A DNA stretch of 64,000 bases from Bryoerythrophyllum caledonicum (taxonomy: Eukaryota > Streptophyta > Bryopsida > Pottiales > Pottiaceae), in assembly GCA_963971425.1 (NCBI GenBank), contig OZ020520.1, positions 5,312,553-5,376,552 of the forward strand, given 5' to 3'. This document shows, piece after piece, positions 40,020 through 43,400 of the stretch. The notes beneath the pieces are model-generated. The model saw only the letters and a list, made by a program, of their open reading frames with translations, made no database searches and was not told the DNA's origin. How positions within the stretch are numbered: the stretch's first letter is position 1; every line of letters begins with the position of its first letter. A program made the translations under genes and the position numbers.

Positions 40020-40154
40020 TGTTGACTAATGTAGCGGCGGGAAAAACACCACTTAAAGTATATATATATATACTAAAAACAAAAAACAAAAAACAAAAAT
40101 AAATAAAGTATCCCTAGATACTATAAAAGCAAAAGCCACAATCAAATCAAAAAA

Positions 40155-40370
40155 CAACAACAACAACAACAACAACAACAACAACAACAACAACAACAAC
40201 AACAACAACAACAACAACAACAACAACAACAACAACAACAACAACAACAACAACAACAACAACAACAACAACAACAACAACAACAACAACAACAACAACA
40301 ACAACAACAACAACAACAACAACAACAACAACAACAACAACAACAACAACAACAACAACAACAACAACAA
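40155..40370 (+). repeat. (CAA)72 array, in frame with ORF2
   Basis: Seventy-two uninterrupted CAA triplets. In the ORF2 frame they encode polyglutamine; on the minus strand they create artificial poly-Leu and poly-Cys frames. No AUG lies between the array and ORF2's first AUG at 40464, and the in-frame open stretch begins after a TAA at 40104. Confidence 0.97.
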
Positions 40371-40415
40371 CACTCTACACCCATCCCAATAGCAACCATA
40401 AACACTACTCATTTC

Positions 40416-40463
40416 AAACTATTAATTGTACTTTGCGGAGACATAGAAACTAACCCCGGCCCT
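40416..40463 (+). other. 2A-like ribosome-skipping motif
   Basis: In the ORF2 frame, directly before ATG 40464, the codons read K-L-L-I-V-L-C-G-D-I-E-T-N-P-G-P. This matches the D-(V/I)-E-x-N-P-G-P consensus of 2A peptides completely and has the hydrophobic LL-V-LCG run usual upstream. 2A peptides make the ribosome skip the last Gly-Pro bond, and they are known at the N-termini of some non-LTR retrotransposon ORFs. Its position implies that translation of ORF2 starts upstream of 40464. Confidence 0.9.
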
Positions 40464-43400
40464 ATGCCAAATATCTTCCACAACCATCCAAAAATACATA
40501 AAAGATTATCGAAAATATATTTCATACCGAATACTATAAAACTCCACCCCGAATATCAACACTTGGCATCTTCCTTTGCACCACTTCTAACAAATAATCA
40601 CATACTCCACCAAACTTATTCTGCCCTCTACCCCAACATTTCCCACTACATACAACTAAAAAACAACCACCCATCAACACACATCCTATTCGCCTTAATT
40701 ACTACCCTCTACCCTTCAATAGAAGAATGCAACAAAATCATCAACCAACATACTGCCAACACAAACCCAACATATTGGACAAACACACTACTAAACACCC
40801 TATCCTCTCTACAAAATCCCCCTGAAAGACATATAGATACACTCCATCCATACACCAAATTCCTAGTAGAAAACCAACACCTATTCGAACACAAAACCTC
40901 TCTACACAATGACCTATATATCTTTATTCACAGCCAAACCCCACCCCCTTCCCCCGATGAAATACAACTAAAAATCCCCTTCTTCCCGAACAATCTTATC
41001 CTCGAAGCTCTTAGATGCTTTGAACCAATCTATGCTTACACACACCCCACCTTGACACCCGACTACATTTCCCCTCCACTCTGTAACCACGACAATATAG
41101 ACAACAGAAGCACATATATCACTACATGGAATGCCGCAACATTAAACACTGCTTTACCAAGCATCCATAATCTAATCGCCCGCACCAACACACCACCCGC
41201 CATAATTGCCATACAAGAAACTAAACTAACCGCTACTAAATCCACAAAATACATACAAAAAACATTCCCCAATTATAAACTTATATTTAATAACACTCAT
41301 TCTCTCACAAGATGCATCCAACAACGAAGGCCATATACACCGGCAAGAGGAGGTCTACTCATGCTCATACACCAATCATATGCCTTCCCCGGGAATATTA
41401 CTAAAATCCCCACCCCAGCTAATATATCACCATATCTTCAAATTATTGAAATTACTAACCGACCCCTTCAACCATGGCTCGTCCTTCACCTATACATGCC
41501 CTCTCACATAGAAGACTCGAGGCTTATCCCGGAAATCCAAAATTCCATTACTTCACAAATAAATACACACACTAACCACACAATAATACTTTGCGGAGAC
41601 TTTAACCGAGATATCGCCCTTATTGGACGGCAACACGGAGGGGTTTCTATCCCCCCAATGGACATAGACTATCAATGGAAAAATTATACGGATAACCTAG
41701 GGCTATATCTAATCCCAACTAATACACAATACTCTCGTCAAGGCGGACATAATTACACACACACCAGCCTAATTGATGGATTCTACATTAAAACACCTAA
41801 CCATACCCGATATACATCTACCACAAATACCACAACCAACTTAAACTCGGACCACTTCCCAATCCAACTACATATACCTCACAACACCCTTATTAGTAGA
41901 CCTCCCACAACCACCAACTCAAATGATACTAAAATACTAAACCCCATCCCAAAAGAAAACCTGGATAACTTTAATACAATATTCTTTGAAAAGAACTCAC
42001 TACAAATAGACTCCCTTACAGATACTCTCTCTAACCACCAACACCTCACACACATACAATGGCAAGAAACTTGCACGACTCTTGACAAACTAATTAACGA
42101 AATTTCTATCATATTAGAAAAAACCTGTAAAGCGCCTCCGATTCCACAACTCACACCTCGAACGTCAAAACAAGGGGGGTATCTCCCGAGAAAACTAGCC
42201 AAAAAATGGAAACAACATCTTGCCACATACCACACCATTCGCAAAACGATCTACACCGCTAAAAATAATCATAATTGGCAAACCCACCCCATAATCTCCG
42301 AACTACAAAACCTCCGTCACCCTCATATCCCACAATTACCACTACCTAACACCTCTCACGAAGAATGGTTAAAAGACATTGCAATCATTGCAAAAAATGC
42401 CAATAAAGAAGCTCGGAAAATTACTACAAGATATGCAAGAGAATGTGTCAAAAAAGCCATATCTAAATATCGCCAACTATACGAAACTAGCCCAAAAAAG
42501 ATTAATAGAAAAGTCTTTAAAAATAACACAAACCTGCCACTAGATTGCATCTTAGATCAAAACAATAACATTCTAACCAGCCCTGATGACATTGCAAACG
42601 AAATACATTTTCAACAATCCATAAATAATAGACCAACCACCCCCCCATGTCACTTCCAACCACAACACACATCAACATGCACGTGCGGAGTTAAGCAATA
42701 CCCGTGGCATGATTTAGACGGATTTACCATTGACAAAAGAGGCGAACCAACAATACCTCTCCACACATATTATAACAGAGACACATACAACATGTGCCTA
42801 AAAAATTTGGGAACTAACAAAGCCCCCGGCCCGGACCATATACCCAACTCAATTCTAAAAAATATGCCCCCAAGATTCCACGACCTCCTATCATTATTTT
42901 TCCTTCATTGTTACAAACAAAAATCCATTCCCGTATCTTGGAAAACAAGTCTAACAATCTTATTATACAAAAAAGGAAACCCATATGTGCTACCTAACCA
43001 CCGACCTATTGCCTTAGCTAACACCATTTATAAATTATATACTAGTACACTAACATCAATATTATCGGCTTACGGGGAAATACACCAAATATTACACGAA
43101 TGCCAAGAAGGATTTAGAGCCGAGAGAAGTACCACACGGCAACTTCAAACCCTCATTGCCGCACTTGAAGATGCAAAATTCACTAATAAAGACATTTACA
43201 TACTCTACATTGACTTTAAAAACGCATTCGGTTCCATTGACCATCCTCGATTGCTAGCCCTTATGAGTGATCTTGGATATCCGGAAGACGCAGTCAAACT
43301 GGTTGGTAATATATACTCTCAATCTACCACTACATACACCGGAGAATTCTTTGGTAAAACGCGCCCTATCCCCATCCAACGTGGTACCATCCAAGGCGAT

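Follow-up and report, generated by a model that had tools for sequence, protein, structure and literature searches.

The window analysed here, a 64,000-nt stretch of the Bryoerythrophyllum caledonicum genome, carries on its forward strand an APE-type LINE with a predicted 2A peptide directly ahead of its second open reading frame. ORF1 of this element (38380..40019; likely start ATG 38380, picked by eye) terminates as MDMSN-UAG, with the stop codon at 40017-40019, and its end forms a candidate -1 slip site, GUCAAAC-UAG (40010..40019; A AAC). The remnant of a leader frame lying -1 to ORF1 occupies 40016..40099 (28 codons if the codon spanning the ORF1 stop is included, 27 if not) and is closed by a TAA at 40100; within it lies an AT palindrome, AGTATATATATATATACT (40057..40074), which reads VYIYT in the -1 frame and recurs in the leaders of relatives. 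Further downstream are a (CAA)n microsatellite (40153..40372; a TRF array of 73.3 units), whose length and frame differ among copies, a 2A-like StopGo peptide predicted from the sequence, HFKLLIVLCGDIETNPGP (40410..40463), and, immediately 3' of NPGP, the AUG of ORF2. The first part of ORF2 (40464..43877) comprises an N-terminal region followed by an APE-type endonuclease (41124-41627; Pfam PF03372/PF14529) and a reverse transcriptase (42978-43769; Pfam PF00078), and the second part (43829..47497) contains a PCIF1-like domain (45242-45613) and an RNase H (46028-46450), ahead of the A-rich 3' tail of the element (47544..47583). The presence of endonuclease and reverse transcriptase in a single ORF, as assigned by Pfam, is the arrangement of an APE-type LINE, and the reverse transcriptase also matches R2 and L1 ORF2p chains in the PDB.

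A first-pass annotation had described an open stretch from 40107 to 40463 in the frame of ORF2, with LCGDIETNPGP ending at 40463 and an AUG at 40464. Both frame and coordinates are correct, the complete stop-to-stop ORF carrying the 2A and the start of ORF2 being 40107-43877 (+). The absence of any AUG from 40030 to 40463 was likewise borne out, the nearest upstream AUG (40029-40031, as AUG-UAG) being the sole AUG, whatever the frame, in the interval from the ORF1 stop to the 2A, as was the observation that the ORF1 end shares the frame of the 2A in this copy, with the UAG at 40017-40019 followed by further in-frame stops. The long run of CAA codons is present, its length being 73 codons on recounting and not 72. 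The window copy is a decayed descendant in which the link between ORF1 and 2A has been lost and both ORFs are interrupted: the frame of ORF1 is disrupted in the overlap 39285-39396, that of ORF2 is broken at approximately 43829-43877, the -1 frame after ORF1 is open to 40099 only, and the 2A lies in frame 0 relative to ORF1. Because of this decay no plausible start for the 2A was found in the window, and since the 2A now sits in the ORF1 frame behind stops, the window copy conceals the -1 relation found among its relatives.

A second related LINE copy, 5'-truncated, is present at 9510-11904 of the window (73.6% identity over 2.4 kb). Both window copies contain a PCIF1_WW (PF12237) match, at 45242-45613 and 9345-9917, which scores above the Pfam cut-off and is located between the reverse transcriptase and RNase H of ORF2. 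We take PF12237 to be the family of the mRNA cap m6Am methyltransferase, and the match is possibly a captured methyltransferase-like domain. Over ORF2 the sense strand is strongly G-poor and A/C-rich, with a GC skew of -0.28 to -0.59 in 2-kb steps across 40001-48000. TTTAGGG-type repeats also occur in the window; together with 58 chlorophyll a/b-binding protein matches in the genome, they fit a photosynthetic host that is probably a plant. As a target-site duplication of the element, only a 9-base match far upstream was found, and it was not relied on.

A motif search of the window returned a single 2A match, compared with none in 100 shuffles. Across the 437-Mb genome, an exact search for GD(V/I)ExNPGP followed by ATG identified 1,590 sites and the reversed pattern none, which argues against chance occurrence of the motif; the pattern TGY-GGN-GAY-RTN-GAR-NNN-AAY-CCN-GGN-CC, i.e. 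CGD(V/I)ExNPGP, gave 413 sites genome-wide, again with none for its reverse. The peptide conforms to the C-terminal 2A consensus (D/G/C/N)(V/I)ExNPGP. Upstream contexts such as LLIVLCG, LLILLCG and LILLSG were compared by eye with a class of active 2A contexts, an L-rich stretch ending in (A/S/C)G before D, as set out in an excerpt of PMC12846837, and they fit this class; the family C context (LLLLGG) has a G that falls outside (A/S/C), and L is less frequent in the contexts of family B (TLLYRCG) and L054 (HHLIKCG). The motif is also retained, with differing codons, between families that are approximately 53% identical in the ORF2 N-terminus, and distant families recovered by protein similarity or by motif read, for example, HYKTLLLLCGDIETNPGP, LCKILILLSGDIEKNPGP, YHKLLLLLGGDIETNPGP and TLLYRCGDIEQNPGP, with Met as the next residue in the copies read.

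Selection on the motif was assessed in copies located independently of it, namely 40 found by DNA similarity (the window copy and 39 others) and 16 more found by protein similarity, together 56; twelve motif-picked copies (L048-L059) were kept outside both this set and the DNA-similarity count. Conservation of NPGP across relatives had been proposed as a check, and the octapeptide D-I-E-x-N-P-G-P proved intact in 31 of the 40 DNA-similarity copies, the other nine comprising eight single changes and one frameshifted copy. The AUG following NPGP was retained in all 40, and in 75/75 copies overall, a count that includes 19 copies (L060-L079 less L072) fetched by protein similarity and positioned with the motif. 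Among the 56 copies, pN/pS was 0.14 for the octapeptide (0.10 minus the one frameshifted copy), 0.37 for the eight codons preceding it, 0.93 for the nine codons further upstream (-25..-17), and 0.28 for ORF2 codons 1-20. When restricted to the 40 copies found by DNA similarity, a set with many decayed members, the corresponding values were 0.26, 0.44, 1.57 and 0.17; here the octapeptide is not lower than ORF2 codons 1-20, a point against the recoding model set out below. A value of 0.08 was obtained for the octapeptide in 18 hand-chosen representatives, none of which has an altered octapeptide. Between lineages, dN/dS over the 18 codons of the 2A was mostly 0-0.34, with three pairs of few changes at 0.57, 0.57 and 1.14. 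As judged from these sequence comparisons, the pattern of pN/pS demonstrates selection on an encoded peptide of approximately 18 residues, which must be translated. The earlier recognition of a 2A consensus fused in frame to a LINE ORF2 thus extends to a peptide that selection maintains in a number of families in this genome.

Similar 2A-like motifs, in frame with the endonuclease and reverse transcriptase, are known from other APE-type LINEs, including L1Tc of Trypanosoma cruzi and elements of sea urchin and other animals (Heras 2006 and Odon 2013, as cited in the passages of PMC4981915, PMC11512398 and PMC5972666 on which this comparison draws). The present elements differ from these in their plant host, their very high copy number, and the placement of the 2A in the -1 frame across the ORF1 stop. 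They also differ from the sea urchin NLR 2As, which are N-terminal and able to act as signal sequences, in that the 2A here follows a long spacer linked to ORF1. Among the literature matches listed, no paper on 2A in plant LINEs was recognised, which does not in itself establish absence from print, and an excerpt of a recent survey (PMC12846837) reports no natural use of StopGo by plant viruses, though StopGo works in plants.

A match to ORF1 was found upstream of the 2A in 72 of 87 copies examined, and one more was mapped later. Copies were regarded as intact if they possess an open ORF2 frame of at least 2400 aa (no listed frame falls between 2227 and 2403), giving 39 intact copies examined (25 of 39 in one listing and 14 of 52 in the protein-similarity listing; hand-counted, with one copy in both), of which 32 have ORF1 mapped; seven intact copies without an ORF1 match (L071, L080, L081, L083, L084, L090 and L092) enter no link count. 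Each of the 41 broken copies either is listed with a short frame or shows a stop in ORF2; they include L050 and L056, whose ORF1 ends were misplaced and which were left out of the 70-copy comparison of open runs below. In 24 of the 32 intact copies the 2A lies in the -1 frame relative to ORF1, with the stretch between the ORF1 stop and the 2A free of stops, compared with 6 of the 41 broken copies (Fisher p ~2e-7), among which the 2A was in the -1 frame in 14, in 0 in 10 and in +1 in 17. Linked copies are present in 8 of 11 lineages, grouped by eye; the 24 linked intact copies belong to bursts of closely similar elements, the two largest with 9 and 5 members, and many intact copies are recent duplicates and hence not independent. 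The eight unlinked intact copies are L013, L016, L072, L077, L079, L082, L086 and L087. In L077 and L087 the -1 frame shuts after 27 and 14 codons, respectively. L072, whose motif begins GGD and which has the -1 frame with one stop in the leader, was examined separately and stands outside the leader, terminus-survey and open-run comparisons. The new observation here is that intact copies mostly have the 2A and ORF2 in the -1 frame relative to ORF1, open across the ORF1 stop, and this arrangement points to -1 frameshifting.

Examination of open runs after the ORF1 stop, which is independent of the phase of the repeat tract, gave median lengths of 125 codons in the -1 frame, 2 in 0 and 17 in +1, with -1 the longest open frame in 61 of 70 copies and not the longest in the other 9. 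Distant families in which the 2A now occupies a different frame also showed long -1 runs (173 codons in L086 and 206 in L094). In L058 the +1 frame is open across the entire leader. Twelve representative linked leaders contained no stops in the -1 frame and 3-26 in each other frame; shuffled leaders were as open in 0 of 2000 cases for 11 of the 12 and in 3 of 2000 for L044, a description and not an estimate, because these copies were chosen for being linked. In terms of sequence, these comparisons establish selection for a -1 frame that stays open on the way from ORF1 to the 2A. The first-pass annotation had listed near-cognate initiation, splicing, readthrough and re-initiation as routes by which ribosomes might reach the 2A, none of which best fits the family, most intact copies of which show the open -1 frame. 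As a general route, reading through the stop of ORF1 to reach the 2A was ruled out, because a further stop is met in the 0 frame after a median of 2 codons. That the open -1 frame is a relic of ORF1 and ORF2 having formerly been one frame, split by a recent indel, would account for two frames one base apart that meet at the ORF1 stop; we regard this as highly improbable, given that the same -1 relation occurs in families with dissimilar leaders and much-changed silent sites and that stops would have accumulated, as they have in the broken copies.

In some lineages the -1 frame opens just 19-22 nt before the ORF1 stop, with no AUG, so that it would have to be entered either from ORF1 near its end or by a non-AUG start. 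Initiation at a near-cognate codon or within the leader, on a separate or full-length transcript, would yield a short leader peptide ending in the 2A. The leaders lack a conserved in-frame AUG and some copies carry one at varying places (L048, L060, L070 and family C), as such initiation would allow, and the upstream AT-rich palindromes could conceivably serve as a TATA element; such initiation would explain neither why the -1 frame is already open within ORF1 and directly after its stop, in families whose leaders are otherwise little alike, nor the conserved NCA-AAC at the ORF1 end, and we consider this route unlikely. A conserved, AUG-started leader was ruled out, as in-frame AUGs come and go (within family B, L048 has one near the start of the leader where L091 has Ala).

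The terminus of ORF1 itself shows marked conservation. Across 66 ORF1 termini (L051, L056, L082, L085, L086 and L094 lie outside this survey), NCA-AAC-stop was present in 62 and the last codon was AAC in 64, with the codon before it being TCA in 57, ACA in 5, and CCA, TTA and TCT in one each, the remaining case being a misplaced end; L051 ends ATA-AAC. In ORF1 at large, A occupies 33% of four-fold third positions and AAC accounts for 55% of Asn codons. NCA-AAC is retained while the encoded amino acid varies among S, T and P, and in distant families a related (N)CAAA(C/A) occurs one or two codons before the ORF1 stop; CAAAC is lost in L085 and changed in L041 and L055. No probability is attached to this conservation, because the copies are not independent. 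Only T at the third position of the NCA codon would close the -1 frame, and slippage of A-AAC to AAA therefore accounts better for the retention of A there than does an open frame by itself.

With its overlapping frames, the downstream one at -1, this arrangement resembles the -1 frameshifting of retroviral and LTR-element gag-pol, likewise with adjoining or overlapping frames and a shifted enzyme frame (excerpt of PMC5009743), and the ciliate LINEs for which a +1 shift of the enzyme frame between ORF1 and ORF2 has been inferred (excerpt of PMC5405496). In contrast to these systems, no classic heptamer and pseudoknot were found here, and the long, little-constrained spacer has at its end a 2A whose activity would split the products apart. 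Most copies carry no classic X-XXY-YYZ heptamer at the ORF1 end, the usual sequence being GUCAAAC, which allows only the re-pairing of AAC to AAA; two copies, L046 and L072, have GUUAAAC. No downstream structure common to all lineages was found, folding z-scores in 10 copies ranging from -7.2 to +0.4 with hairpins that differ by lineage. A candidate conserved hairpin after the ORF1 stop, UAGCGU/ACGCUA, is present in some lineages and absent in others, and was rejected.

Between the ORF1 terminus and the 2A, the spacer appears to be a translated but free linker, as suggested by dN/dS values between lineages of 0.41-1.30 over the 14 computable pairs, with the qualification that for family B pairs the leader compared includes the 2A. 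The -1 leader carries AGTATA...TATACT palindromes, which read VYxYT in that frame. These AT palindromes, AGTATAnnnTATACT, are repeated after the ORF1 stop, at 40057-40074 of the window and in the leaders of relatives, and may represent an RNA hairpin, a DNA site or merely a VYxYT coding repeat. The repeat tract that follows is read in sister copies as polyQ, polyN, polyT or a His-containing mixture and varies in length from a few codons up to hundreds; it is short or missing in several copies of other families that were picked by the motif. CAA, AAC and ACA repeats are stop-free in all frames of the sense strand. The polyglutamine is incidental, a trinucleotide microsatellite in a G-poor strand; a functional polyQ peptide is ruled out, since even closely related copies differ in whether the repeat encodes Q, N, T or H, and the polyglutamine leader peptide of the first-pass annotation falls with it. 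Its observations are therefore confirmed and its interpretation is partly supported.

Taken together, we think it likely that ORF2 in this large superfamily of APE-type LINEs is expressed through two consecutive recoding steps, in the order ORF1, -1 frameshift, spacer, 2A StopGo and ORF2, with the slippage, its location and the activity of the 2A being deduced from sequence. Ribosomes translating ORF1 would slip back by one base at the conserved A-AAC at its end, bypass the ORF1 stop, and enter the stop-free and little-constrained spacer of VYxYT repeats and, in many copies, trinucleotide microsatellite. They would next translate the 18-residue 2A peptide (e.g. YKLLILLCGDIExNPG / P), where the Gly-Pro bond would be skipped, releasing an ORF1-spacer-2A protein, and continued translation would produce a free ORF2 protein (endonuclease, reverse transcriptase and RNase H) starting Pro-Met. 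The frameshift would set a low ratio of ORF2 to ORF1, with the 2A serving to free ORF2 from the fusion.

Retention of the AUG directly after NPGP in every copy of the overall count hints that initiation there also matters. Re-initiation at this AUG once ORF1 has terminated, with the leader acting as a G-poor, AUG-poor scanning track and the 2A having a minor or regulatory role, would agree with that retention and with the single AUG between the ORF1 stop and the ORF2 AUG in the window, and termination-reinitiation is the route proposed for SART1 and mammalian L1 in an excerpt of PMC5972666, a different LINE answer to the problem of expressing ORF2. The SART1 and L1 route is AUG-based, whereas at the ORF1 end of the family A lineages read here the linking frame lacks an AUG. 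Re-initiation would moreover require neither peptide-level constraint on the 2A nor an open -1 frame, and AUGs occur in the leader of several copies; as the main route it seems to us quite improbable.

Translation of ORF2 is a long-standing problem in LINEs, with answers that differ among groups. We lean towards the view that abundant LINEs in this plant genome, which has over 1,500 2A sites, express ORF2 by means of a natural double-recoding cassette in which a -1 ribosomal frameshift at the ORF1 stop precedes StopGo. Separation of the fusion by the 2A would let the frameshift set the ORF2:ORF1 ratio without ORF2 remaining fused. If true, the plant lineage would be making natural use of StopGo on a large scale, and a shift site of the non-canonical form A-AAC, close to a stop codon, would function there; the LINEs would also provide naturally occurring 2A peptides adapted to plants. 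The family has numerous intact copies that are nearly identical, and both its shift site and its 2A can be put to the test.

A different layout was identified in family C, which accounts for 33 of 140 protein-similarity matches with a 3087-aa open frame and is apparently a very young LINE subfamily. In L080, L081, L083 and L084 of this family, a long in-frame leader containing in-frame AUGs is followed by the 2A and ORF2, and no ORF1 match was found in the upstream sequence read. L082, which has the same 2A as family C and was counted among the intact copies as not linked, possesses an ORF1 match and a -1 frame open for 76 codons. As family C keeps the 2A, the peptide stands behind more than one kind of leader. 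Further decayed 2A-like stretches were also seen beside the intact one, GGDMETNPRPMPN in the leader of L090, a similar one downstream in L053, and another in L080, as if 5' ends had been gained by duplication or nested insertion.
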